Assembly: GCA_009773005.1 (NCBI GenBank)
Contig: WOUT01000009.1
Location: 1-64,000, forward strand
Direction of reading: 5' to 3'
From: Chloroflexota bacterium
GTDB taxonomy: Bacteria; Chloroflexota; Anaerolineae; Anaerolineales; Anaerolineaceae
Length of the DNA stretch: 64,000 nt
Shown piece after piece: positions 33,033 through 48,952 of this stretch (position 1 is its first letter; every line of letters starts with the position of its first letter). A program made the position numbers and the translations under genes. The notes beneath the pieces are model-generated. The model made no database searches. It was not told the origin of the DNA and worked only from the letters and a program-made list of their open reading frames with translations.

Positions 33033-33131
33033 ACAAGTTGTCTGTATGGTTTCAAGGATGCGCCTGATTACCGACGTTTTAAACGATATAATCTGGTAAC
33101 TGAGAAACGAATGATTGAACCTCTTGCACAC

Positions 33132-33179
33132 AAACCACCCACAGATGTATGCATCAATGACATCTGAAGGTGGTTTTTT
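33132..33179 (+). terminator. Intrinsic terminator inside the glyA-gcvT leader (attenuator candidate)
   Basis: AAACCACC (33132-33139) pairs with GGTGGTTT (33169-33176), and AGATGT (33143-33148) with ACATCT (33160-33165). Six T residues follow from 33174. This complete Rho-independent terminator lies between the promoter and the ribosome binding site (GTAAGGAG, 33197-33204). It must be read through for the gene to be expressed, so control by an upstream alternative fold, riboswitch or protein is likely. The sequence does not match the glycine riboswitch motifs as recalled. Confidence 0.7.
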
Positions 33180-33210
33180 ATTTTCTACTCATCTGGTAAG
33201 GAGAAATTTC

Positions 33211-36200
33211 ATGACTGATTATCTGTTTCGCGGAAATCTTGCCGATCTAGACCCCGAAGTTCAACAACTGACCGATTTTGAAACAGAGCGTCAATTTCGT
33301 AAGCTTATTCTGATTCCATCCGAAAGCACTGCTCCTATGGCAATTCGTGAATCACTGGGTTCAGTGTTTCAAAACCTGTATGCAGAGGGATACCCGGACG
33401 AGGAAACCCGCTGGATGAGTGAAACGGAAATAATGGATTACCCCGCCCGTCTGGCATATTATCGAAGATATGCTGACCCGCGCTATTATAAAGGTGTCGA
33501 GTACGCTGATTTGATCGAATCTCTTGCCCGCCGGCGCTGTGCCGAAGTGTTTGCCACAGACAAGATAAGCGCAGATCAAATCTATGTGAATATTCAGGCG
33601 TTATCGGGTGCGCCTGCAAATAATGCCGTTTACCATGCATTAATCGAACCTGGAGACGCAATCCTTGGGATGAACCTGCTTCACGGCGGGCACTTAACCC
33701 ACGGTTCTTCGGTGAATCGCACAGGCAAACTTTATAAAGTTTCTCATTACAATGTAGACCCCGAAACCGAGCAGATCAATTACGAGAAAGTAGAGCAAAT
33801 TGCCAAAGAAACCCAACCAAAAGTCATCATCTGCGGTTACTCGTCTTATCCCTGGGTTCCTGATTGGGCACGTTTTCGGGCGATCGCTGATTCAGTAGGC
33901 GCATATCTTCTCGCGGATGCTTCACACATCGCTGGTTTGATCGCTGCCAAGACTATTCCATCCCCGGTCGGCTACGCACATGTCGTCACATTCACAACCC
34001 ATAAAACGTTGTGCGGTCCGCGTGGTGCATGCATTTTGACCACAGATTCGACTTTATCAAAAAAGCTCGATAAAGCGGTCTTCCCCGGTGAGCAAGGTGG
34101 ACCTCATGTCCATGTTTTCGCTGCACTTGCCACGACCTTTAAAATTGCCAAAACAGAACCTTTTGTTGCGCTCCAGCAACAGATCCTGAAAAACTGTAAA
34201 GCATTGACCAACCGCCTGATAGAACGTGGCCTGCGAATCTCCTTTAACGGAACAAATACTCACCTTGGAAATGTTGATTGTAAAACCGTTGTCGGTCCAG
34301 ATGGCACGACCTTATCCGGTGATATGGCGGCGCGCATCCTGGATGTAGCTGGAATCGTTCTGAACCGCAATACCATCCCTGGAGATAAAACCGCCCTGTT
34401 CGCGTCAGGGATTCGTTATGGCACGCCCTGGATGACACAACGAGGTCTGGTTGAAAAAGATATGGTGAAAGTGGCTGATATCATCGCTGATGTTCTTGGC
34501 GCCATCACCCCTTATTCAGTCGAAACTCGCAAAGGACCTGCCCAACGCGCCAAAATCGATTTTAAGGTTTTAGAGGATGCAAAATTGCGTGTCCGGGCGA
34601 TTTGTGAGGCTGCGGGCGCAGATTTGAAATATTCGCAGAGTGGATATCCCCATTTCTTTTACATTGACGATCAATCACAAAGGAAAGATGAATACACTTC
34701 TCTTGATATAAGCGGTGAAAATGTCCGGCACTTTGTGACTTATTGCTTCAGCTCTGATGTTGAAGATTTGAAAGTTGGAGAATATCAAAACACCTCAATA
34801 ACCACCCCTGCGGGTCTGGTAGAGGGCGTTTTATCAAATGTCACTCCCTCCGTCTATCGATTTACCTTCAAGAAAGGGAATTTTGGGGTGACAGCGACAT
34901 TCCTGCGCGACCTCTCGGATGGTTATATTGCGTTCGACAATGATGTTCCCAGACGCATCCCGGGCCCGATCGTGATTGAAGAAAACATCAATGAGCCTCT
35001 GGTAAAAACAGATCGTAGTTTGTTGCCAAGCCGAAAACCCTATTTTATTGGACAGCAAGATACTATAGCCGCGACTCTACCAAAATTCGAGTGGACTGAA
35101 AAAGAATCCAATGAATTATTCCGCACTCCTCTATACGAAATTCATAAAAAGATGGGCGCCAAAATTATCCCGTTTGCTGGATGGGAAATGCCAGTCTGGT
35201 ACACCTCTGTGGTCGAAGAACACCTGGCCTGCCGTCAAGCCGCAGGTCTGTTCGACGTCTCCCACATGGGCGTCTTTCAAGCCGAAGGTCCACACGCAGC
35301 ATTATTCCTCGAAACAGTATGCGGTAACGACATCGGTGGTCTCGCGGTTGGAGAATCCTGCTACACCCATTTCCTCGATCCACAGTCTAACGTAATTGAT
35401 GATACATTGGTTTACAGGCGAGCAGTTGATAAATATTTGGTCGTCGTGAACGCTTCTAATGACGCCAAAGACTGGGCATGGTTAACTTCCGTCCGCGACG
35501 GAAAAGTTCAAATTGATCAACATCGCCCCTGGGTTAAAACATTTGGAACAGGGGTTATATTACGGAACTTACGTGATCCAAAAGCTGGAAAAGATATGCG
35601 CGTTGATATTGCTCTACAAGGTCCTAAATCCAGGGATATTCTGCTTGCTTTAGGTTGTGACAGCGCCACTCAAAAGAAAGTGAAATCTTTAAAACGAACT
35701 GAATTATGCGAGACTGTTATCGGAGGTTTCGATCTTGTCGTTTCAAGAACAGGTTATACTGGCGAAAAAATGGCTTTTGAGCTCTTTATCCATCCTGAAC
35801 AGGCCCCCGCGTTATGGGACGCGATTTGCAAGGCTGGTGAGCCTCTTGGCTTGAAAGCCTGTGGTTTAGGAGCGCGTGATTCATTGCGCACCGAAGCTGG
35901 ATTACCTCTTTACGGTCATGAGATGGGCGGTGAGATGAATTTTGGTGTTGCTGAAGCGGGTTTTGGCTCATATGTGAAAATATATAAACCTTGGTTCATC
36001 GGTCGTGATGCATTCATCGAGAGAGAGAAAAACCGCGCCGGTGTTGTTGTGCGATTCCGGTTCACCGAAAAGGGTGTCAGAATGGCTCATAATGGCGATC
36101 CTGTTTTGGATGCCAAAGGCAAGGTCGTTGGTGTCGTCACCAGTTGCGCGATAGATAAAGAAGGTTATTTGACAGGTCAGGCATTTGTAGAAAATCGTTG

Positions 36201-36339
36201 CGCTATTGAAGGTTCTGCTATTTCACTCTTCCAGGGCGCATCCAAACTGGCAGCCAAAGCTCCAGCGGAACTGAGTTCTGGTGATAAAGTAATCCTACCC
36301 GCACCGGCTGTTGTGATTAGCCGTTTTCCTAAACTGTAA
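33211..36339 (+). CDS. Serine hydroxymethyltransferase fused to aminomethyltransferase GcvT
   Basis: One uninterrupted 1042-aa chain joins two one-carbon enzymes. Residues about 1-450 are serine hydroxymethyltransferase: LIPSEST near the start and Lys265 in TFTTHKTLCGPRG as the PLP lysine. Residues about 637-1040 are the T-protein of the glycine cleavage system: LYEIHKKMGAKIIPFAGWEM, FDVSHMG, SRTGYTGEKMAFELF and GLGARDSLRTEAGLPLYGHEM. Between them about 180 residues (455-635) include a stretch (SGENVRHFVTYCFSSDVEDL, then KVGEYQNTS) that looks like a degenerate GcvT-fold piece. Both enzymes make or use 5,10-methylene-THF, so the fusion could channel it. The ATG has GTAAGGAG seven bases upstream. 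gcvH and gcvP are not in the window. Confidence 0.93.
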   Translation: MTDYLFRGNLADLDPEVQQLTDFETERQFRKLILIPSESTAPMAIRESLGSVFQNLYAEGYPDEETRWMSETEIMDYPARLAYYRRYADPRYYKGVEYADLIESLARRRCAEVFATDKISADQIYVNIQALSGAPANNAVYHALIEPGDAILGMNLLHGGHLTHGSSVNRTGKLYKVSHYNVDPETEQINYEKVEQIAKETQPKVIICGYSSYPWVPDWARFRAIADSVGAYLLADASHIAGLIAAKTIPSPVGYAHVVTFTTHKTLCGPRGACILTTDSTLSKKLDKAVFPGEQGGPHVHVFAALATTFKIAKTEPFVALQQQILKNCKALTNRLIERGLRISFNGTNTHLGNVDCKTVVGPDGTTLSGDMAARILDVAGIVLNRNTIPGDKTALFASGIRYGTPWMTQRGLVEKDMVKVADIIADVLGAITPYSVETRKGPAQRAKIDFKVLEDAKLRVRAICEAAGADLKYSQSGYPHFFYIDDQSQRKDEYTSLDISGENVRHFVTYCFSSDVEDLKVGEYQNTSITTPAGLVEGVLSNVTPSVYRFTFKKGNFGVTATFLRDLSDGYIAFDNDVPRRIPGPIVIEENINEPLVKTDRSLLPSRKPYFIGQQDTIAATLPKFEWTEKESNELFRTPLYEIHKKMGAKIIPFAGWEMPVWYTSVVEEHLACRQAAGLFDVSHMGVFQAEGPHAALFLETVCGNDIGGLAVGESCYTHFLDPQSNVIDDTLVYRRAVDKYLVVVNASNDAKDWAWLTSVRDGKVQIDQHRPWVKTFGTGVILRNLRDPKAGKDMRVDIALQGPKSRDILLALGCDSATQKKVKSLKRTELCETVIGGFDLVVSRTGYTGEKMAFELFIHPEQAPALWDAICKAGEPLGLKACGLGARDSLRTEAGLPLYGHEMGGEMNFGVAEAGFGSYVKIYKPWFIGRDAFIEREKNRAGVVVRFRFTEKGVRMAHNGDPVLDAKGKVVGVVTSCAIDKEGYLTGQAFVENRCAIEGSAISLFQGASKLAAKAPAELSSGDKVILPAPAVVISRFPKL

Positions 36340-37643: not shown

Positions 37644-39377
37644 TTATGCGTATTTCGGTTCCCAGAGCTTAAATTCCTTAAATATCGATCCCCCGATAAA
37701 TTCCAGCAAGATTGAATTATCCGGGATTAATTGAGTATCAATAGGCAGGAACCATTCAAGAAATGCCAATAATCGTTTTGCTTCAACGTATTCCGGTGTT
37801 CCATAGACAACCTGCCGCAAGAGTGGTTCAACCAGCGGTTTTAAGGCCGATAGTTCATATACCAGGGCTGAATTAAATAATTTATTGCCGTTCTCCTGAT
37901 ACGGAAAAATATACTCTTTCTCTCCTCTTTGTACAGATTCCCAGCGTTGAATAGTCTGCTGGGCTGTGTAGCCCCTTTCACGAGCGTCACGCACAATTCG
38001 CCTTAATAGCCTTGTATCTGTTGTGGAAATCCGGTTGTATCTATCCAGATTGAGTTGAGTCAGACAAGAAGCATAAATTTTATATGTTGAAGAAGGATTA
38101 ATATCCGGAAGAAGGTTCGGGTTTAAACCATGGATTCCTTCCAAAATGATCATATGATCTGGTCTAAGTTGGACGACTTCACCAGGAACATTTTTACCTA
38201 GCAAAAAATCGTATTTTGGCAGTTGTACTTCTTCGCCAGCTATCAAACGTTTTAAATGGTCGGCCAATAACCTTGTGTTCATTGCCCCCAGAGATTCAAA
38301 ATTATATTGGCCGAAACTATCTTTTGGTGTTCGTTCACGATCTACAAAATAATTATCCATCTCAATCGGAAATGGAGAAAATCCATGTGCCAATAGTTGG
38401 ACAGATAAACGCTTTGAAAAAGTGGTTTTTCCGGAGGATGATGGTCCTGCAATCAAGATGATTCTAGCTTCATCGGAGCGTTCTGCAATGTGCTGTGAAA
38501 TATCAATGATCTGCAGTTCGTGCAGTGCCTCAGATACCAAAATTATCTCACGGATGTTGCCCGCCTGAATTGAATCATTTAACGCTCCAACTGATTCAAT
38601 CCCAAGTCTCTGCAGCCAATTACCATACTGCCGGAATGTACTTAGAAGTTTCGGATAACTTGGCATGGGTACGATGGTTTTGGGAGAGTTCTTTCGCGGG
38701 AACCGGAGGACAAATCCATCCCCTACCAACTCAAGGTCGAACCACTTTAAATACTTTGTAGATGGGACCATATATCCATGATGGTAATCCTGATGTTCGC
38801 CCAAACTGTACAGAACTAAATACTCCTTCTGTCGGTATTTTAACAACCTTACCTTGTCGATTAACCCTTTAGATTGAAAATAATTAATGACTTCATTCAG
38901 CGGAACCGTCTTCCGGTTAAATTTAAAATCTGCTTCAACAAGTTCAAGCATCCGGTGCTTGAGTAGATCCAGCTCTTTAGTCGATAACTTCCCGATGTCA
39001 GTAACATGACAATAATATCCACCCGCTGATACAGAGTGATCTAAAGTCATTTGGGCATCAGGAAAAAGTTCTTCAAAAGCTGCTTCCAATAGAAAGGTGA
39101 TGGACCTACGATAGATTCGCGCTCCGTCATCATCACCCATAGTGATCAAGCGGATGCGTGAGTCAATTTCAATCGGATATGTTAATTCGCGCAGTTCGCC
39201 ATTGACGACAGCGCCCATGATTGGTGGCGAATCCCATTCCGGCAGCATCTGCAGCAAAGTTTCCAGCGTAGCGCCGCGCTGTCCGGTATAGACTCTGCCA
39301 TCCGGGAGAATAATTTCGATCGTCTTCCGTGGAGATTTGATTCTTCCATTAGCTTGATCTGCCATCTGATTTGCCAT
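37644..39377 (-). CDS. Uridine kinase-like nucleoside kinase with N-terminal TGS/ThrRS-like domains
   Basis: 577 aa. An N-terminal TGS-like domain (about 18-80: IEIILPDGRVYTGQRGATLE) is followed by a region resembling the threonyl-tRNA synthetase editing-type domain (SVSAGGYYCHV, about 115-190). From about residue 290 comes a P-loop kinase of the uridine kinase / phosphoribulokinase family: Walker A IAGPSSSGKTTFSKRL, EMDNYFVDRERTPKD, and MIILEGIHGLNP. The cognate nucleoside is unknown; the class is usually called nucleoside kinase. The start has AAGG upstream. It is divergent from the small membrane protein gene at 39506. Confidence 0.87.
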   Translation of the reverse strand: MANQMADQANGRIKSPRKTIEIILPDGRVYTGQRGATLETLLQMLPEWDSPPIMGAVVNGELRELTYPIEIDSRIRLITMGDDDGARIYRRSITFLLEAAFEELFPDAQMTLDHSVSAGGYYCHVTDIGKLSTKELDLLKHRMLELVEADFKFNRKTVPLNEVINYFQSKGLIDKVRLLKYRQKEYLVLYSLGEHQDYHHGYMVPSTKYLKWFDLELVGDGFVLRFPRKNSPKTIVPMPSYPKLLSTFRQYGNWLQRLGIESVGALNDSIQAGNIREIILVSEALHELQIIDISQHIAERSDEARIILIAGPSSSGKTTFSKRLSVQLLAHGFSPFPIEMDNYFVDRERTPKDSFGQYNFESLGAMNTRLLADHLKRLIAGEEVQLPKYDFLLGKNVPGEVVQLRPDHMIILEGIHGLNPNLLPDINPSSTYKIYASCLTQLNLDRYNRISTTDTRLLRRIVRDARERGYTAQQTIQRWESVQRGEKEYIFPYQENGNKLFNSALVYELSALKPLVEPLLRQVVYGTPEYVEAKRLLAFLEWFLPIDTQLIPDNSILLEFIGGSIFKEFKLWEPKYA

Positions 39378-39794: not shown

Positions 39795-40643
39795 TTAATC
39801 ACTCGGACTGGCAAACATCATTCTTTCAAGTAATGTTTTTTGCAGGATTAAGAAAATTACAATCACCGGTATCGACATAATAATCAGGAGTGACCCAAGC
39901 ATGCTCCATGGTTGCGCATTACCGCTCTGAACCATGGCATAAATAGACATTGCCAATGTTACGGTATCAGCCTTGCTGACAAAAAGCCAACCGATTGCAA
40001 ACTCGGAATACCCCATAAGGAAAGCGATTAACCCCGCCACTGCAATTAAGGGCATCGCGAGGGGTAGAGATACATACCAAAATGACAAGAAATTATTAGC
40101 CCCATCCAAAAATGCTGCTTCCTCGAGTTCCTTTGACACGGATTGGAAACCGACTCGCATATTCCAGATACAAAAAGGTAGTGCAAAAGTTGCGTAGACA
40201 ATCGTGAGTCCAAGTAAGGTAGTTCGAATCTGCAAGATACTTAGCAGAATATACAACGGTGTCATAAACGCGACTGGTGGTAGTAGTGCTGATAAAAGGA
40301 GTATGAATAATGCCGGTTTTTGACCCGGAAATCGAAAACGAGCAAAAGCGTATGCCAACGAAGCCCCCAAGATTAGAGCAATGGCTGCTGCGCCAATTGA
40401 AACGATCATGCTATTCCTGATTAAGATCAAAAAGTCTACTGACTGGTACGGTTTATCAAGCACTTTGAAAAAAGAATCAATGGCAAATACTTTCGGCAGT
40501 AGCCGAAATTCAGTTGCCCTGCTTAAGAGCGATCCGTCAAACGCCAAACGTGCAATCCCCCAAATAGGCAGGACTACATACAGACCAATTATGACTAATA
40601 TTAATTGCGTGATAATTTGTTTAAACCAAATATTTTTACGCAT
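39795..40643 (-). CDS. MalG-type sugar ABC transporter permease (second pair)
   Basis: A maltose-type inner-membrane permease (282 aa) with six predicted membrane segments. The EAA coupling motif is KELEEAAFLDGANNFLSFWYVSLPLAMP, which docks on the ATPase. It pairs with the C-terminal domain of the upstream fusion protein, whose stop it overlaps by 8 bp. This MalFG pair has no binding protein of its own next to it, so it may use the MalE at 46.7-47.9 kb or one encoded elsewhere. It is the last gene of the locus. Confidence 0.9.
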   Translation of the reverse strand: MRKNIWFKQIITQLILVIIGLYVVLPIWGIARLAFDGSLLSRATEFRLLPKVFAIDSFFKVLDKPYQSVDFLILIRNSMIVSIGAAAIALILGASLAYAFARFRFPGQKPALFILLLSALLPPVAFMTPLYILLSILQIRTTLLGLTIVYATFALPFCIWNMRVGFQSVSKELEEAAFLDGANNFLSFWYVSLPLAMPLIAVAGLIAFLMGYSEFAIGWLFVSKADTVTLAMSIYAMVQSGNAQPWSMLGSLLIIMSIPVIVIFLILQKTLLERMMFASPSD

Positions 40644-42816
40644 AAGTCACACCTTCACCGGCCTTGCTCCATCGATTAAGGAGAATTACGAAACCTATTA
40701 GTATCACTATTGTAATAATATTGAGAACCGCAGAAATCGAAAACTGACCATTAATAAAATATCCGCTGACATTAAAGAAATTATAAGATAGCGTCGCTAG
40801 AGTTGTTTCACCTGTCCGAAACGCTTGAAAAAGATAGAATTGATTGAAAGCAAAAATACCACGAATAATAATCGCGGGTATAAACAGAGGCATGAGCATC
40901 GGCCAGGTTACATAACGAAAAGTATTAAGGGAGTTTGCACCATCTAATGCAGCAGCATCATACACTTCAGTGGGAAGCATTCTTAATCCCGCCGAAGCAG
41001 CCAGCATCATGAATGGAAAGCCATACCAAACTCCTGAGATCAATAAAACAACTAACCTTAGATTTGCAGTTTGTTCCCACCCGTTTAGCCCTGCAAATGG
41101 AAAACTTGAACCATATTGTTCAACTCCAAGGCTTAACCAGCCCGTTGCTGGTGCAAAAATATTGATCCACATTAATGCACCAATCATCTCTGGGATCGCC
41201 CAGGGTAAGATAAACAACGCCTCCCAACCTCTTTTGAATTGAACTCCTCGCTGCCAAAGTAGTAAAGCCACGCCTATACCCAAAATAGATTGTAGAAACA
41301 CAGAAAGAAATGTCCAAAATATATCAAAAAATAAGATGCCGCTCGATTTAATATAATCAAAAACAGGCAAATAAGAAGAAGTACCTATGTAATTCACGTC
41401 TTTTGCACGGAATGGAAATTCCGTATTATCCGGAGGTATTCTCCCGGCTAATCCTCCCCACACCTCTCTGAAAATGCCGCCATTCAACCCATCTTTCATT
41501 GAAACGCTATTAAAGTCCGTCAGAGAAACACCAGCCTGGAATAATAATGGCAGGAGTGTAAAAACCAGGAATGCGGTCAATCCTGGAATTAACCATGGAA
41601 GCGCTTTTTTAAAATTGTTAGGTTCGATGATCTTGATTGAACGATTTTTGTTTTTAATACGGTCATATAGACGAACAACTGGCTCAATGAATAGACCTTT
41701 TAATCCTTCAGAAGCCGTCAAGCATAGCGGTGCAGTGAGAATGACAATATATTGAGGCCATTTCGTCGGCCAAATCAACAGGAAAATTAATGCAACAAGA
41801 ATCCAAATTGCATATACGGGTTGTTTTTTTAACTGCCGAGAGAAACCAAACAAAGCCAATAATGTAATTAGTGGATCAATAGCAATGAGAATTGAGTTTG
41901 GCTGCCAAGCCTTGGGAGTCGTCATTAGCCAGATAAAGGGTTGCCACAAAGGAAACCCAGCGCTCTCTACTTCACTTGCTCCTGATGAATAAGCGGCATG
42001 GTAGAAAATCGTTTCGTTTAGTCTATTAATTGGGTCTGCCCATAAATATGGATCGGTAATAATAAATACCAGAAAAGCCAAAGAGCCCCAAACAAGGATC
42101 TTCGAAATACTCTTCTTTGTTTCCTGGTTTTCAACAGCGGTAATAAGCCAATCGATCACTATAGCAATTCCAGCAACACAATATAAGTACTTGGAAGAGG
42201 CGGTGAGCCCCAGAAATATCGCTGATGGGATTAACCATCCCAACCGAGTTTCTTTTTTAGGCTTATGCTGTTTCCAACGTATATAGAATAGTACTGCCAG
42301 CAGGCTGGTTAAGGCTGGTAATGCCTCAAGCATGATTTGCGAAACGTATTTCACTGTAAAAGCATGAACTGCAAGAAACACTCCCCCGATCGGATTGACC
42401 AGTGCGACAAGACCGGCAGTAATCGTACCGAAAACAGCGCTTGTGATGCGGGCGTTCCTCAAGAGGTCTCTTGGAAGATATCGGTTGGGCTCTGATGTAG
42501 TCGGGTGGTCGCCAATCAATGGTTTCTCAGGCAGCGACAGCAGACTCAAACCAAACACGACCTTTGCCAATGGTGGATGCTCTGGGCGATAATTCGTTTC
42601 CAGAAAAGCGGTCCAATTTCCGGTGCGGAAGATCGTTGTGTATTCCTGCGCGGCGCGCATATAATCATCTTCATCGTAATCGATATTTAAGGTGGTCAAA
42701 GCATTCCATCTCAGCCCCCAAGCCAACAAAACGACGAGAAGCACGCTTATTGATAGAAAGAAAGGTTTAAGGAAAGGTTTATTATTCACAAATTTATATC
42801 CTGTTTTATAGTCCAA
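40636..42816 (-). CDS. Fusion of a PMT/ArnT-like (GT-C) glycosyltransferase domain with a MalF-type ABC permease
   Basis: A 726-aa polytopic protein in one open frame. Residues about 20-385 look like a GT-C membrane glycosyltransferase of the PMT/GT39 or ArnT type: the first external loop has the acidic DYDEDDY (residues 47-53) and the second landmark EHPPLAK (79-85), with about eight membrane segments after. From about residue 403 (KKALPWLIPGLTAFLVFTLLP) it is a complete MalF-like permease. The EAA motif is TEVYDAAALDGANSLNTFRY, and about six segments follow the joint. The start codon abuts the stop of the amylase gene (42817) and the end overlaps malG2 by 8 bp, so it sits inside the operon. 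What a glycosyltransferase would do fused to an importer is not known. Confidence 0.85.
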   Translation of the reverse strand: MDYKTGYKFVNNKPFLKPFFLSISVLLVVLLAWGLRWNALTTLNIDYDEDDYMRAAQEYTTIFRTGNWTAFLETNYRPEHPPLAKVVFGLSLLSLPEKPLIGDHPTTSEPNRYLPRDLLRNARITSAVFGTITAGLVALVNPIGGVFLAVHAFTVKYVSQIMLEALPALTSLLAVLFYIRWKQHKPKKETRLGWLIPSAIFLGLTASSKYLYCVAGIAIVIDWLITAVENQETKKSISKILVWGSLAFLVFIITDPYLWADPINRLNETIFYHAAYSSGASEVESAGFPLWQPFIWLMTTPKAWQPNSILIAIDPLITLLALFGFSRQLKKQPVYAIWILVALIFLLIWPTKWPQYIVILTAPLCLTASEGLKGLFIEPVVRLYDRIKNKNRSIKIIEPNNFKKALPWLIPGLTAFLVFTLLPLLFQAGVSLTDFNSVSMKDGLNGGIFREVWGGLAGRIPPDNTEFPFRAKDVNYIGTSSYLPVFDYIKSSGILFFDIFWTFLSVFLQSILGIGVALLLWQRGVQFKRGWEALFILPWAIPEMIGALMWINIFAPATGWLSLGVEQYGSSFPFAGLNGWEQTANLRLVVLLISGVWYGFPFMMLAASAGLRMLPTEVYDAAALDGANSLNTFRYVTWPMLMPLFIPAIIIRGIFAFNQFYLFQAFRTGETTLATLSYNFFNVSGYFINGQFSISAVLNIITIVILIGFVILLNRWSKAGEGVTYA

Positions 42817-44466
42817 TTATTTATCCCTGGGGATTATCTTGAAAATATATGTCGTATATGGCGCTAATTGAACCAGCGGAACATAATCAGCAGAACCAAA
42901 ATTACTTACCTTTAAGTCTGAAGGGACGCTTTCCCCCATCAGCATCTCCAGTTTATATTCCCCTTCCTTAAGAGTGGATGCATTCCAATTCAAACGATAC
43001 TCATCAATGATTTCTTTGGTCATGTTTACCAGAACAAGGATGGATTCCTTTTTACTTTTGCGCAGAGCAGCATATATTCCCCGGTTTGATACCGACACAT
43101 GGGTATAGCCACCAATCGATAGAACTGGATATTGAGTTCTTAGCCGGATTAATTCTTTGTAATAATTGAGAAGCGAATCTGGATCAGCAAGCTCTGCCTG
43201 AACATTAGCAGCCATATAGTTCTCCCCTAGTTCTCGCCATGGAGTTGTGGTTGTGAAACCAGCATGGCTGTTATCAGACCACTGCATCGGCTTTCGAATA
43301 TCTTCGTCAGGTTTGGTACCTTCCATTCCGATCTCCTCTCCGTAATAGATAAACGGCGTTCCTGGAGAGGTCAACAAGAATGTCGCTGCAACTTTAGCTT
43401 TATCGATGTTTCCACCAACGACGCTCATGACACGATTCTGATCATGGTTCGTCAGGAAAGTCCCAAATGTCCAATCAGGGTTATCTTTTTCTATAAATGT
43501 TACAGCGCTGCCAATCCCTGAGACCGACCCGCCATTGGCGCTGTTCACAAATCCACTTGCCAATTCGAAATTAAAGACCATATCCATCTGGTCGCCTGCA
43601 TAGGTTGCTGCAACTCGTGCATCACTCGCGGAAACCTCACCGACCACAAACGCATTTGGATTAACCTCTTTATAAAATGTATAGAACTGTTTAAACCAGT
43701 CATGAGTGGCTTTGGTATTATCGAGTTTATCGCCTTCCTCGATCAAATGTTTCGCAGCGTCAATCCTGAAACCATCGACACCAATTTCGCTTAACCAGTA
43801 TTCCGTAACTTTTTCCATTTGTTCCGTTACTTTTGGATTTTTAAAGTTGAGATCAGGCATGCAATCGCAGAAATAACCATAGTAATAATTTGATGTCGGT
43901 CCAACCCCTGCCGAATGCCAGCGGTTGCCTTCATTTTCAGGGGACCACACGTACCAATCATGGTATGCCGAGCCTTCCATGGAACTCGCGTCCTTGAAGA
44001 ACGGATGCTGATTTGAGGTATGGTTTAGAACGAGGTCAATGATCACTTTAATTCCACGTTTATGGGCTTCCTCCAGAAAATGTTTAAAATCCGCCAAACT
44101 GCCATACTCTGGATTGACTCCGTAATAATTCAGTACGTCATATCCATGATAGGAAGGGGATGGATGAATTGGCATTAGCCAAATTGCTGTAATTCCAAGA
44201 TCAGTGTTTGTTTCTGGATTCCCATCGTTCAGGTAATCCAATTTTTCAGTGATCCCATTAAAATCCCCGATCCCGTCGTCATTACTGTCATAAAAACTGC
44301 GGACAAAAATCTCATAAAAGACGGCTGTTCTCCACCATGGCGATGAGCTCAATAAAGGCTCAATTTCCTTTACATTTCTCGTTAGTAACTCTCTCGGTTG
44401 AACAACCGTACATCCTGCCATGAGTGTCAAAACCATTGGTAATAATAAAAACAATTTTTTCTTCAT
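42817..44466 (-). CDS. Secreted GH13 alpha-amylase-family lipoprotein
   Basis: A family 13 glycoside hydrolase (549 aa) anchored outside the membrane. Residues 1-19 are a signal peptide ending in the lipobox LMAGC. The barrel has VIDLVLNHTS, GFRIDAAKHLI (nucleophile Asp), VVGEVSASDA (acid/base Glu) and FLTNHDQNRVM (Asp). A C-terminal beta domain ends in YTTYIFKIIPR. It likely cuts alpha-glucans or maltodextrins at the cell surface before import by the adjacent transporter. It lies downstream of malG, with a terminator-like hairpin between, and directly upstream of the fusion permease gene. Confidence 0.92.
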   Translation of the reverse strand: MKKKLFLLLPMVLTLMAGCTVVQPRELLTRNVKEIEPLLSSSPWWRTAVFYEIFVRSFYDSNDDGIGDFNGITEKLDYLNDGNPETNTDLGITAIWLMPIHPSPSYHGYDVLNYYGVNPEYGSLADFKHFLEEAHKRGIKVIIDLVLNHTSNQHPFFKDASSMEGSAYHDWYVWSPENEGNRWHSAGVGPTSNYYYGYFCDCMPDLNFKNPKVTEQMEKVTEYWLSEIGVDGFRIDAAKHLIEEGDKLDNTKATHDWFKQFYTFYKEVNPNAFVVGEVSASDARVAATYAGDQMDMVFNFELASGFVNSANGGSVSGIGSAVTFIEKDNPDWTFGTFLTNHDQNRVMSVVGGNIDKAKVAATFLLTSPGTPFIYYGEEIGMEGTKPDEDIRKPMQWSDNSHAGFTTTTPWRELGENYMAANVQAELADPDSLLNYYKELIRLRTQYPVLSIGGYTHVSVSNRGIYAALRKSKKESILVLVNMTKEIIDEYRLNWNASTLKEGEYKLEMLMGESVPSDLKVSNFGSADYVPLVQLAPYTTYIFKIIPRDK

Positions 44467-44517: not shown

Positions 44518-45537
44518 TTAGCCTTTAACGCCGCCAGCGGTTAACCCGCTTACAATTTGCTTTTGCAGCAATACGTACACAATTGCGACAGGTAAAGCCA
44601 CAATGATTGCCATTGCAGCAAAGCGATTCCATGGAATGGAACTTGCGTATTGGCCTGTCATGTTATATAGCGTCATTGCCAGGGTGTAATCTTGTGGTTT
44701 GGTCAGGAACAACCAGGGCAAAACAAACTCCTGCCAGTGCCCGATAAAGCCGAGGAAAAACGTCACAGCCATTTGAGGCGCTGCTAACGGCAAGACAATT
44801 CTAAAAAAAACTTGATTTGAATCCGCACCATCAATTGCCGCAGCTTCTTCCAGCTCTTTCGGAATTGTATCCAGATAGCCTTTCAGATTCCAAACCGCAA
44901 ATGGTAAAGCTGTAGAAATCATGGCTATACCCACTCCGATCAAGGAATCCCTTAAATTGAAAAGCAGTTTTGCCGCAACACCTGGATCGCATGCAGAGAA
45001 TGGTTGTATTGCCATTGCGCCATCCGCGCAAGTCTTAACCTGCAAGCTATTCATCAATAAAAACAAAGGGGTTGCAAGACCTACCGCTGGCATCAGCAAC
45101 GGAATAAAGACCAATATCATCAACATCTGGCGCAGTTTAAACTTGAAACGCGAAAAAGCATATGCCGCAGTAACGGCTACAAGCAGCGCAACGAGTCCCA
45201 CGATAACTGAAAGCAAGAAACTATTCTTTAAGAGCTCCAAAAAGGTTACCGGGTTAGCGGTTGGGCGGGTTAATACTTGTTGAAAGGCGACCAGAGAGAT
45301 TTCTTTTGGAAATAGTTCCAAGGTTGAGGGTCTTGTTGATTTAGAACTGAATGCGAGGGTGATAATATACATGATCGGAAACATCACTTCAATAGTGATA
45401 AGGAGACATAACAATTGAATAACCAACTGCCTCCAAAGGGGTAGTTTCTCGCTCCCACCCTTGCTGCCAGAAGTATCTATGTTAAAAAAACGAACAAGAA
45501 AGTTCTTTGGTTTGTCTGTTTGGGTTATGGTTGTCAT
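44518..45537 (-). CDS. MalG-type sugar ABC transporter permease (first pair)
   Basis: An inner-membrane permease (339 aa) of a maltodextrin-type importer, about six membrane segments. It is longer than usual because of a 30-residue cytoplasmic N-terminus and a loop near residues 165-195 (QVKTCADGAMAIQPFSACDP) that holds two Cys and is probably extracytoplasmic. The EAA motif is KELEEAAAIDGADSNQVFFRI. The ATG at 45537 was chosen because it follows the malF stop by one base with GGAG upstream. Confidence 0.91.
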   Translation of the reverse strand: MTTITQTDKPKNFLVRFFNIDTSGSKGGSEKLPLWRQLVIQLLCLLITIEVMFPIMYIITLAFSSKSTRPSTLELFPKEISLVAFQQVLTRPTANPVTFLELLKNSFLLSVIVGLVALLVAVTAAYAFSRFKFKLRQMLMILVFIPLLMPAVGLATPLFLLMNSLQVKTCADGAMAIQPFSACDPGVAAKLLFNLRDSLIGVGIAMISTALPFAVWNLKGYLDTIPKELEEAAAIDGADSNQVFFRIVLPLAAPQMAVTFFLGFIGHWQEFVLPWLFLTKPQDYTLAMTLYNMTGQYASSIPWNRFAAMAIIVALPVAIVYVLLQKQIVSGLTAGGVKG

Positions 45538-45538
45538 C

Positions 45539-46552
45539 TTAAGACTCCGAATAACTTTCTGTGGCTCGTGTGATGCGGTTTGTAATAAGGAAAATTGAAA
45601 GCACCACAAAGAATATGATCACAGAGAATGCGCCAGCAGCGCCGTACAAGCGTAAATTCCTTACAAGGTCGTAAGCGAAAGTTACCAGAATCTCTGTCGT
45701 TCTTGCTGGTCCACCACCTGACATGAAGTAAACAAAATTAAAGAGATTGAAAGACATGGTGAACCCGTACATGGCAGCCGGGATCATTGCTGGTCTGATC
45801 AAAGGAACTGTTATATTCCAAAACTGAAAGGTGCGTGATGCCCCATCAATGGAGGCTGCTTCATAAAGTTCTTTTGGAATGCTTTGCAGGGCGCCTGTTG
45901 CCACTAAAACCATAAAAGGCCAACCTAACCAAAAATTGGCGATCATCATGGCATAGTATGCCAATGGCAGCGGACCGTTTGGCAGAAGCCATGGAATTGG
46001 AGGTTTATATTCAAATAACCAACGGATTTTCACAGGGTCAATATTCCCAAACAATTGGGAGGTTGCTGTTAAAGCCTGGTTCATCGCGCCGTATTGCTCA
46101 TCAAAAATGTTCCGCCAAATGGTTCCCACTACAATTGGAGGAATGACAACAGGAAGGACGTAAATGGCACGATATAGTCTCTTGAACCAGATGCCTTTCA
46201 CATTCATTAATACTGCGATTAAAACACCAGCCGGGACATGAACCATTACATTTGTTATGGCCCACCAGAAGTTATAGGTCAGAACTCTGAAGAAATCAAA
46301 ATTCTGAACTGGCAGTCCGCCGGTGATGATATCTATGTAATTTTTAAATTGAATATGGTTCAACTTTGGGGAATTTAATCCCAATAAAAGGTCTTTTGTC
46401 TGAAAATCAGTGAACGAAATGATAACCTGGTAGATCAAAGGGTAAAAAGTAATTACCCCTAGCACAACAAACGCAGGTAATAAATATAGATATGGGATGA
46501 ATGCACGCCGTAAGTTGACTTTGCGCTTTACCGGTACAGTTATCGTTGCCAT
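45539..46552 (-). CDS. MalF-type sugar ABC transporter permease (first pair)
   Basis: Permease partner of the MalG encoded next (337 aa). It opens with RRAFIPYLYLLPAFVVLGVITFYPLIYQVIIS, typical of MalF-type proteins without the extra N-terminal segments of the E. coli protein. The EAA motif is KELYEAASIDGASRTFQFWNI. The ATG at 46552 has GAGGGAC just upstream; the in-frame extension to 46618 would run through a hairpin and has no ribosome binding site. It is 128 bp downstream of malE. Confidence 0.92.
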   Translation of the reverse strand: MATITVPVKRKVNLRRAFIPYLYLLPAFVVLGVITFYPLIYQVIISFTDFQTKDLLLGLNSPKLNHIQFKNYIDIITGGLPVQNFDFFRVLTYNFWWAITNVMVHVPAGVLIAVLMNVKGIWFKRLYRAIYVLPVVIPPIVVGTIWRNIFDEQYGAMNQALTATSQLFGNIDPVKIRWLFEYKPPIPWLLPNGPLPLAYYAMMIANFWLGWPFMVLVATGALQSIPKELYEAASIDGASRTFQFWNITVPLIRPAMIPAAMYGFTMSFNLFNFVYFMSGGGPARTTEILVTFAYDLVRNLRLYGAAGAFSVIIFFVVLSIFLITNRITRATESYSES

Positions 46553-46592
46553 CAGTCCCTCGCGAATATGGTCCGGGTGGATTTTTGTAAAA

Positions 46593-46628
46593 GTCAAAGC
46601 AAATGAGATCGCTCCCACTTGCTTTGAC
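46593..46628 (-). terminator. Hairpin between malE and malF
   Basis: GTCAAAGCAA (46593-46602) pairs perfectly with TTGCTTTGAC (46619-46628) around a 16-nt loop. On the coding strand the stem is followed by TTTTACAAAAAT. This position, between a binding-protein gene and its permeases, is where many sugar operons carry a stem-loop that keeps binding-protein mRNA abundant. Confidence 0.6.
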
Positions 46629-46680: not shown

Positions 46681-47853
46681 TTACTTGTTTGCGTTTGCGG
46701 TGCCAGTGGCGACCCATTCAGCAGCGGCGACACCCTTTTCGAAAACTTCATCAGTACCGCAGAAGTTGGACCAGTATAGGCCTAACTGAGGAACCTGCGG
46801 GCGGATGGTGGCGCCTTTATTGAAGGCATCCACGAGACCCTGGATCAGGGGATCGGTGATGGTGACGTCAGTGCGCACAGGAACGTGACCGGCTTCGTTC
46901 ATCATGACGGTCTGTGAAGCGGCGTTGGTGAGGAATAGAGCAACCTTCAGGGCAGCTTCCTGATTGGTGCTTGTTGGATTGAAATAGAATCCATCAACAC
47001 CTAGGAATGGGGTGGCGGGGCCAGTGGGGCCAGCGGGCAGCGCGGTCACGGCCAATTTATCGCCAAGGGCATTTTTGTAATCGCCCATTGCCCAGTTACC
47101 ATTGGTGATCGCAACAGCTTTTCCTTCACTGAAGGGGGCAAGACCATCGCTGTCGTTTTTCGGCCAGGAATTGGTTTTGGAGATCTGATAAGCTTCATTC
47201 AAGAAGGCCATCGCATCTGCAACGCCGGTACCCTGGTCAGCAACAACTTTCCATGAATCGTCGAAGATTTTTCCGCCATAAGCGCCAAAGAAACCAAAGT
47301 GATGGTAGCAGCCGTAGCTGATAGAGACTTCGGTGCCGCCCTGCATCAGAGCAAGCAGTTCATCGGTAGTCGCAGGAGGCGTGGGGAGCAATTCTTTGTT
47401 ATACCAGAAAGCAACTGCCTTGAGGCTTTCGGGAATACCATAGAGAACACCATCAACGCTCATACCATCGATACCAAGTTGGTTTACGCCATCAAGTTTG
47501 CCTTTGGCAAGTTCAGTAATATCTGCCACCAGGCCGGCACGGGCATCATCACCCAATGAATCATTGGGGGCAATGAACATATCAGGACCACTTCCGGCGG
47601 CAACGTCAGTGCGATATTTATTGAAAATATCGTTGAATGGAACCTGAAGTGCATTAACCTTGATTTCTGGCATATCAACAGCAGCCTGCGTTAAAAGTTT
47701 GGTCAATGCAACTTCCTCAGCAGAGCCAGTGCCGTAAGCGTGCCAGAAGGTTACTTCAGCTGCAGCGGGTGCAGCGGTCGGTTTTGCGCATGCAGCCAAT
47801 GCAAACGCAACGATCATCAAAATACTGATCAGGGGTAATAACTTCTTAGTCAT
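46681..47853 (-). CDS. MalE-type extracellular sugar-binding lipoprotein
   Basis: Substrate-binding protein of a carbohydrate ABC importer, family 1 (390 aa). A signal peptide with lipobox ALAAC (lipidated Cys21) is followed by a short Ala/Pro tether and VTFWHAYGTGSAEEVALTKLL. Further family landmarks are AAGSGPDMFIAPND, GKAVAITNGNWAMGDYKNA and LPAGPTGPATPFLGVDGFYF. Neighbouring amylase and permeases suggest maltodextrin as ligand. The start has AGGAGAG upstream. The LacI-type regulator gene ends 109 bp upstream, so it may share that transcript or use its own promoter. Confidence 0.92.
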   Translation of the reverse strand: MTKKLLPLISILMIVAFALAACAKPTAAPAAAEVTFWHAYGTGSAEEVALTKLLTQAAVDMPEIKVNALQVPFNDIFNKYRTDVAAGSGPDMFIAPNDSLGDDARAGLVADITELAKGKLDGVNQLGIDGMSVDGVLYGIPESLKAVAFWYNKELLPTPPATTDELLALMQGGTEVSISYGCYHHFGFFGAYGGKIFDDSWKVVADQGTGVADAMAFLNEAYQISKTNSWPKNDSDGLAPFSEGKAVAITNGNWAMGDYKNALGDKLAVTALPAGPTGPATPFLGVDGFYFNPTSTNQEAALKVALFLTNAASQTVMMNEAGHVPVRTDVTITDPLIQGLVDAFNKGATIRPQVPQLGLYWSNFCGTDEVFEKGVAAAEWVATGTANANK

Positions 47854-47962: not shown

Positions 47963-48952
47963 TTAAGCCGTCTCCCTTTCAATAACCTTCAACGGCAATT
48001 CGATATGTTGAACAGGCTGGGTAGATTCTGAAAGGCGTGAAATCAATAAATTGGCAGCAATTCTTCCTGATTCATCCAATGGCTGATGAACTGTAGTCAA
48101 GCCAAAGTATTCTGCCATATCAATATCATCAAAACCAATAATCGCAACGTCTTGTGGAATTCGCAAACCTAGCGTTCTAACTTCTTTAATAAGCGAAATC
48201 GCCTGAAGGTCAGTTGCAGCAAATATGGCCAGAGGTAATCCGTAAGAAATGAGATTTTTTAATACCTTACCAGGATCATGGGCATATTCACATGCAAAAT
48301 CATCAGGCAATGAAATTTCATTTTCTTTCAGGGCTTTTAGATATCCCTTTAAACGCTTTTCTATCGGGTTAACCCCAAATTCTGGTTGGATCCGTCCTCC
48401 AATAAAGGCAATCCTTCGGTAGCCTTTATCCAAAAGGTATTTTGTAGCCATATACCCGCCCGCAACATCATCAATTTCCAGTGTGCAGAAATGAGAATCG
48501 AAGAATTCGATAAGGACGGTTTCCAATTTGTTGTTGATCAGTCTGAGGGCAATCGTTTCATCAAAAACCTGCGAAGTTATGATCAATCCATCTAATGTCA
48601 TACTCAAGGGAAGTGTTTCGAGGTAACTTTTTTCGCGGGAACGTGAATCTACCGGGTAAATGACCAATTCATAATCATTCTGGTTTAATACACCTGAGAT
48701 TCCCCTTAACCGTTGCACAAAAGATGGTGTCGTAAAAAAAGGAATGAGCACTCCTATTCGCCTGGTTTTCATAAGCGCTCTAGCCCGGGATTCTGCCTTT
48801 GGTATATAACCCAGAGAATCAATCGCATTCATAACCGCAGTGCGGGTAGCAGGTTTTACTCGAAGGGGATAATTTAAAACTCTGGAAACTGTGGCAATGC
48901 TTACTCCAACTTCTTTTGCTACATGATAAATTGTGGGTTTCGAATTTGGCAT
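47963..48952 (-). CDS. LacI-family transcriptional regulator of the glucan locus
   Basis: A 329-aa repressor-type regulator. The N-terminal helix-turn-helix (TIYHVAKEVGVSIATVSRVL) and hinge helix are followed by a periplasmic-binding-like sensor domain (IGVLIPFFTTPSFVQRLRGI; GFDDIDMAEYFGLTTVHQP). It most likely binds a maltodextrin-derived effector and controls the transporter and amylase genes downstream. A perfect inverted repeat (TGTAAG-CT-CTTACA) overlaps its own promoter, so self-repression is likely. The start has AGGGACAG upstream. Confidence 0.93.
   Translation of the reverse strand: MPNSKPTIYHVAKEVGVSIATVSRVLNYPLRVKPATRTAVMNAIDSLGYIPKAESRARALMKTRRIGVLIPFFTTPSFVQRLRGISGVLNQNDYELVIYPVDSRSREKSYLETLPLSMTLDGLIITSQVFDETIALRLINNKLETVLIEFFDSHFCTLEIDDVAGGYMATKYLLDKGYRRIAFIGGRIQPEFGVNPIEKRLKGYLKALKENEISLPDDFACEYAHDPGKVLKNLISYGLPLAIFAATDLQAISLIKEVRTLGLRIPQDVAIIGFDDIDMAEYFGLTTVHQPLDESGRIAANLLISRLSESTQPVQHIELPLKVIERETA

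Follow-up and report, generated by a model that had tools for sequence, protein, structure and literature searches.

In a 64,000-nucleotide stretch from an Anaerolineaceae member of the Chloroflexota (assembly GCA_009773005.1, contig WOUT01000009.1, positions 1 to 64,000; hereafter the window), a single gene joins a glycosyltransferase domain of the GT-C type in frame to a permease of the ATP-binding cassette (ABC) importers. The open reading frame (ORF) occupies positions 40636..42816, is open throughout its 726 residues and encodes a GT-C domain of the PMT/ArnT-like kind at about residues 14-390 and then, at about residues 398-724, a CUT1 permease of the MalF/SugA type, hereafter MalF2. Such a fusion had been proposed in a preliminary description made from the DNA letters alone. 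Domain searches, structural modelling and comparison with relatives confirmed it, and the strand has to be specified: the gene lies on the minus strand, while frame 1 of the plus strand is riddled with stops over the same interval.

Two domains in one reading frame

Each half gave its own Pfam match, as the preliminary description had anticipated. PMT (PF02366) matched at residues 75-253 with an E-value of 3.6e-5 and 23.9 bits, marginally above the cut-off of 22.7, and BPD_transp_1 (PF00528) matched at residues 511-711 with an E-value of 4.8e-11. When 52 glycosyltransferase domains (48 fused and 4 free-standing) were searched at an E-value of 0.01, PMT matched 8 of them and PMT_2 matched 23, and a profile built from the same 52 domains met the profile of Pmt4 from the Protein Data Bank (PDB) with an E-value of 2e-5. 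The permease half was related by sequence to the MalF chain 2r6g_F (E 1.3e-16).

An AlphaFold2 model computed with 48 fusions as input reached a predicted local distance difference test score (pLDDT) of 88.2 and a predicted template modelling score of 0.61. Comparison of this model with known structures by VIA-align gave a GT-C fold and then a permease fold. The N-terminal part resembled the protein O-mannosyltransferases Pmt4 (9i5l; residues 14-382, Z 27.9, root mean square deviation 3.2 over 340 aligned residues) and Pmt2 (6p25_B; residues 14-389, Z 27.2) as well as ArnT (5f15; residues 16-382, Z 25.5), while the C-terminal part resembled SugA (7caf; residues 398-724, Z 24.2, root mean square deviation 3.4 over 281 aligned residues) and MalF (9nxc_H; residues 399-723, Z 23.5). 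About nine long helices were counted in the modelled glycosyltransferase part, roughly in line with the eight membrane helices first suggested. Residues 392-397 between the domains had a pLDDT below 50, so the relative orientation of the domains is not established by the model.

The domains map to 41653..42816 (residues 1-388) and 40639..41631 (about residues 396-726). The TTG start codon at 42816 stands immediately past the amylase stop codon TAA and is preceded, at a spacing of 7 nucleotides, by AGGGA, and the 3' end of the gene (stop codon at 40636-40638) overlaps the ATG of malG2 by 8 nucleotides, in agreement with the operon membership claimed earlier. The operon runs on the minus strand from a LacI-family regulator (47963..48952) through a MalE-like solute-binding lipoprotein (46681..47853), the ordinary permeases malF1 (45539..46618) and malG1 (44518..45609, C-terminus GLTAGGVKG) and a GH13 alpha-amylase (42817..44466, with a lipoprotein-type signal TMAGC recognized by eye) to the fusion and its partner permease malG2 (39795..40643). 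Downstream of the operon, at a position kept in close relatives, the minus strand encodes a 577-residue protein of the phosphoribulokinase/uridine-kinase family with an N-terminal extension (37644-39377). Further on, a 1074-residue ORF on the plus strand (33115-36339) holds a serine hydroxymethyltransferase (residues 116-457) and an aminomethyltransferase GcvT domain (residues 673-942) in a single frame; L038-L043, six close relatives, have unlabelled ORFs of 1019-1072 residues next to the aminotransferase gene.

Conserved features of the two halves

The two landmarks on which the GT-C assignment had first been based, DYDEDDY and EHPPLAK, were found at residues 46-52 and 79-85. We followed them in an alignment of 48 different full-length fusions, made up of that of the window and 47 from loci L044-L101; four contig-cut sequences and six duplicates were dropped, and fusions fetched later lie outside it. 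Residues D46, D48, E49, D50, D51, Y52, E79, H80, P81 and K85 were invariant in 48/48 sequences, as was R123, and the second proline of HPP was present in 41. A pattern count (DxDEDDY together with EHP...K) found the motif in 53 of 56 non-redundant fusions, the window's own being excluded, and the three misses (L091, L095, L097) were genes cut before or within the motif region. When four free-standing cousins were added to the alignment, D46, D48, E49, Y52, E79, H80, P81, K85 and R123 were still invariant; the D50-D51 pair was absent in the five free-standing cousins compared. The HP..K stretch and R123 align with Pmt4, R123 standing against an arginine there. The invariant D48-E49 lies in the first outer loop, as does the catalytic Asp-Glu pair D77-E78 of Pmt1; the Pmt4 profile match begins at HPP and leaves a residue-to-residue match of the pair uncovered. 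In yeast Pmt1, the Asp-Glu pair and that arginine are essential.

The invariance of this motif disfavours a decayed glycosyltransferase domain, which we ruled out, and the half as aligned resembles a working enzyme, favouring an enzyme over a pure scaffold. The same residues bear on a sensory role, in which the GT-C domain would bind a lipid-linked sugar without turnover and so adjust import according to how much envelope precursor is available. Such a gate would fit the presence of both domains on one polypeptide and the lack of a known acceptor. A pure sensor, however, need not retain the proposed catalytic Asp-Glu and its neighbours, which are invariant in all 48 fusions, and D48-E49 is common to the free-standing cousins; we therefore find this role quite improbable.

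The permease half was described from the start as a full MalF with its EAA motif, and we likewise found the fold of a type I importer permease, with the ATPase-coupling EAA loop kept (VYDAAALDGAN, aligned to LYEASAMDGAG of MalF). It also carries features of its own. All 48 aligned fusions share R652 and F657-F663 (FNQFYLF); FNQFYLF replaces the FNxFN-type motif found in MalF1 and the other unfused MalFs compared, and a fusion-specific loop (DG..GG.WRE..G.TG) lies between helices 1 and 2. Two deviants were met outside the 48, L110 with a lysine at 652 and L112 differing at several fusion-specific positions. The residues that contact maltose in E. coli were considered as a predictor of the MalF2 substrate and dropped, the aligned positions differing in MalF1 too. 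The gene of MalG2 directly follows the fusion in 55 of 56 non-redundant loci, the one miss (L093) being a contig end, and from this fixed gene pair we infer a partnership of the two permeases. The consensus of 56 MalG2 sequences keeps EEAA..DGA and ends in a LLERMMFG-like C-terminus; the GLTxGGVKG-type tail, seen in 22/24 MalG1, was present in 0/56 MalG2. In E. coli MalG the corresponding tail sits in the MalK dimer interface, according to PMC3150292.

Distribution and genomic settings

When genome_contigs was scanned with the protein of the window, a search that reaches close relatives (its loci are all titled as Chloroflexi or Anaerolineae-type genomes), both domains stood in a single frame in 44/44 loci, four of them contig-cut. 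Over all examined loci the figure was 57/64, with six of the 57 duplicating a gene already counted. Among 101 relatives, counting the window's own genome, at least 14 carry the fusion, 13 as one near-full-length match and G037 as two pieces in one frame; at least 11 of 400 phylum genomes do so, ten (own included) with a match to nearly the full profile and the eleventh, G379, with a match over profile positions 12-548 and one frame covering both halves. Both counts are lower bounds, two candidates per genome having been scored in the phylum sample and at most 11 in the relatives sample, and the three samples overlap (G451 is L101, G339 is L069 and G420 is L076, for example). In the phylum sample, the fused state persists down to 34-36% identity.

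Three further relatives depart from this pattern. In G067 the gene is cut by the contig. In G041 (L052 8724-10945) the glycosyltransferase and MalF halves stand in different frames; since linker-like sequence runs on in the shifted frame, a broken fusion is likelier than an ancestral gene pair, and the split may be a natural break or an assembly error. G076 retains a remnant (L164 6230-6843, G076:C74): behind MalF1 and MalG1, a 150-residue ORF with the start of the glycosyltransferase (DFDEDDY, EHPPLTK) is directly followed by the end of MalG2 (59% identical over residues 166-273) and then by the amylase, the stretch between being missing, which may reflect a true deletion or again an assembly error. 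The separate frames of G041 are what a frameshift or a chimeric assembly joining two genes might lead one to expect. Yet G041 resembles a broken fusion, the window has no hidden frameshift or stop near the join, the single frame recurs in dozens of separate genomes, relatives and phylum genomes alike, and one alignment spans the junction. An artefact is thereby refuted for the family, and we give it a negligible probability. The fused form in relatives, on which the preliminary description had made its claim depend, is thus well represented.

The two halves were then placed in trees. In the glycosyltransferase tree (107 rows, some of them the same gene fetched twice), the fused label can be explained by 3 changes, shuffled labels requiring 31.4 on average. 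The free-standing rows nested in the fused clade are tandem copies of L067, L078 and L082, and at its edge lie two rows from family f52 and the split gene of G041. In the second tree, built from 104 MalF-like rows, the MalF2 permeases group in a single clade with support 100 and branch length 1.92. Fused genes account for 56 of its 60 rows; the other four comprise two rows of G041, the gene of G067 truncated by its contig, and a fragment of the fusion gene of the window itself. The fused clade stands on a long branch away from MalF1, ruling out MalF2 as a recent copy of MalF1. Among the sampled rows, the two halves thus stay together, G041 excepted, with most of both apparently lost in G076.

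This distribution bears on a reading in which MalF2-MalG2 would import another oligosaccharide while the glycosyltransferase, an active general enzyme of the envelope, would be fused to it for co-expression or stability, uncoupled from transport. Free-standing cousins of about 390 residues occur in the same phylum, a lone copy of the domain lies beside the fusion in three loci, and the permease pair can stand apart from mal genes, all of which would suit such an arrangement. Set against this are the retention of the fusion down to the lowest identities sampled and the observation that the only intact unfused MalF2 in the MalF tree is the frame-broken G041; moreover, R652, FNQFYLF and the extra loop suggest a joint specialisation of the permease with the glycosyltransferase. 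We regard this alternative as serious though rather unlikely. The lone copies stand directly before the fusion (L067 6781-7920, L078 7872-9056, L082 7932-9035). Two other free-standing cousins, L055 and L056, adjoin a LacI-type gene, a GH1 glucosidase-like gene and two GH94-type phosphorylase-like genes, all named by eye.

The 56 non-redundant fusions occur in two main settings: 23 lie behind a solute-binding protein, MalF1 and MalG1 (mal-type), 22 behind prfA (L045, L065-L067, L069-L074, L076-L078, L080, L082, L084, L085, L090, L092, L098, L139 and L140), and 11 have another or too short a context. The amylase is directly upstream of the fusion in 20 of the 23 mal-type loci. A BLAST search with the window's MalE-like protein, covering that one binding-protein family in the stretch near the fusion, found such a gene in 23/23 mal-type and 0/22 prfA-type loci. 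Crude motif patterns detected an ABC-ATPase-like ORF near the fusion in 8/23 mal-type and 0/22 prfA-type loci and a sua5-like gene in 19/22 prfA-type loci; the pattern for prmC matched 3/22 and is too strict for counting absence. Read by eye in L073 and L067, the order is uvrC, prfA, sometimes an agmatinase-like gene, the fusion-MalG2 pair and prmC, then sua5 (L073). A transport-type gene pair is in these loci lodged beside translation genes, and an agmatinase/ureohydrolase-like gene of 314-319 residues, also named by eye, lies between prfA and the glycosyltransferase or fusion genes in L065, L067 and L070. On the tree of the fusions, in which 10 rows are unlabelled, the setting switches five times or more (parsimony gives 6). 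Together with the constant MalG2 partner, these switches suggest that the pair behaves as one unit, which would have moved between the mal and prfA settings more than once.

It could further be supposed that MalF2-MalG2 has given up sugar import and now uses ATP to supply lipid-phosphate carriers to the fused glycosyltransferase or to clear them away from it. The GGP loop of MalF2 and the MalK-interface tail of MalG2 are lost, the prfA-type loci are without a MalE-like gene nearby, and the invariant Arg652 is aligned to MalF Ser433, a residue of the helix lining the sugar path. The pair nevertheless tends to co-occur with MalF1, 23 of the 56 loci belong to maltodextrin operons, and we know of no type I importer that flips lipids; we find such a repurposing very improbable.

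The co-occurrence with MalF1 was assessed in both genome samples. At an E-value of 1e-80 or better, a MalF1-like gene accompanied the fusion in 15 of 16 relatives (the 14 with a single frame plus the split G041 and the contig-cut G067) and was present in 12 of the 85 others, G076 with its remnant being counted among these 12 (Fisher p 8e-10, a value that ignores relatedness). In the phylum sample such a gene was found in 9/11 genomes with the fusion versus 47/389 without (p 5e-7, again ignoring relatedness). The association held at 70% identity or more, with 12/16 versus 1/85 relatives and 6/11 versus 3/389 phylum genomes. MalF1 lies elsewhere in the genome in 15 of 19 named prfA-type genomes and was present in 4 of 5 genomes with another context; in G071 (L141), a set of ATPase (by eye), solute-binding protein, MalF1, MalG1 and amylase occupies another chromosomal place. 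Genomes with the fusion thus tend to have an ordinary MalF1 system as well, though not without exception. The window's genome gave one OB_MalK match, in an ATPase gene on another contig, and this single match is consistent with an ATPase that might be shared.

Possible function of the fused protein

We tentatively propose, while rating it at somewhat below an even chance, that the fusion works as a transferase of sugar from a lipid phosphate, is held at an importer by its permease half and acts on outer-face proteins associated with that importer. The product would be one two-domain protein of the inner membrane, with an N-terminal GT-C domain and a C-terminal CUT1 (maltose/trehalose-type) permease subunit. 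MalF2 would pair with MalG2, a shared MalK-type ATPase would drive the pair, and the binding protein would probably be the MalE-like one of the MalE-MalF1-MalG1 system, whether that lies next door or elsewhere in the genome. At the outer face, the glycosyltransferase half would draw its sugar from a polyprenyl phosphate and pass it to proteins gathered at the importer. Possible acceptors are the binding lipoprotein in its docked state, the amylase of the surface and the permease. The permease half may thus double as a transporter subunit and as an anchor placing the transferase at the importer, and its fusion-specific features suggest that it has specialised jointly with the glycosyltransferase. 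There is a precedent for such acceptors in the O-glycoproteome of Streptomyces coelicolor which, according to PMC6593405, holds several ABC binding lipoproteins, hydrolases and a phosphate ABC permease.

The coupling could be more direct. MalK-driven motion of MalF2-MalG2 might gate or power the GT-C domain through substrate docking, acceptor presentation or carrier handling, a coupled machine that we consider improbable; if true, surface glycosylation would be tied to sugar uptake.

Several observations weigh against a tethered transferase. The sequence similarity to PMT is weak, both in Pfam and in the Pmt4 profile comparison, and transport is possibly altered or lost, given a MalF2 without the GGP loop and a MalG2 without the usual tail. 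The 22 prfA loci sit apart from mal genes. MalF1 was not found in four of the 19 prfA-type genomes (L070, L071, L073, L098), nor in L101 (G451), G467 and G006, so that any dependence on the MalF1 system is not strict, and the frame break in G041 and the remnant in G076 reveal that the unit can be lost. As to acceptor and donor, the linker of the binding protein is not consistently Ser/Thr-rich among 24 N-termini; it therefore offers no obvious common O-glycosylation site, and we discarded it as a shared target. A synthase for the polyprenyl-phosphate-sugar donor was not identified, no direct search for it having been made. A GtrA neighbour was considered in this role and set aside, the one GtrA match adjoining an NDP-sugar epimerase-like gene (by eye) and not a GT2 gene; GT2 genes were not searched.

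Both halves belong to known families, and their combination appears to be a new architecture. The nearest relatives of the N-terminal half are the protein O-mannosyltransferases of family GT39 (Pmt4, Pmt1-Pmt2 and the actinobacterial Pmt), with which it shares the GT-C core fold, an acidic pair in the first outer loop, and HP..K with its arginine. It is 14% identical to Pmt4 in the structural alignment, has no MIR domain according to Pfam, unlike the yeast Pmts, which carry one, and is joined to an ABC permease. Compared with ArnT, the undecaprenyl-phosphate aminoarabinose transferase, the GT-C fold is shared, and the permease stands where ArnT has its C-terminal soluble domain. The C-terminal half shares its fold and EAA coupling loop with E. 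coli MalF and mycobacterial SugA; it differs from both in the N-terminal GT-C domain, the absence of a large P2 domain and of the GGP loop, the extra loop between helices 1 and 2, and FNQFYLF. Tandem mal operons of the Thermotogales likewise hold more than one malFG set, with no ATPase gene in either operon, but each has its own malE there, and the text of PMC2246101 makes no mention of a fusion. No description of a GT-C/ABC-permease fusion was found in the open-licence literature, the scope of our search, in agreement with the earlier statement that this architecture had not been described. A search of that literature for work on Pmt catalysis gave no paper.

GT-C transferases and ABC importers are each widespread, and we found no report of the two as a single protein. 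The annotation of Chloroflexota genomes is directly concerned, since a gene of GT39-like appearance in this phylum may encode part of a transporter. In actinobacteria, binding lipoproteins and transporters are glycosylated on the outer face. A conserved fusion with an intact motif provides a direct experimental handle on the targeting of such glycosylation and on its possible effect on nutrient uptake.

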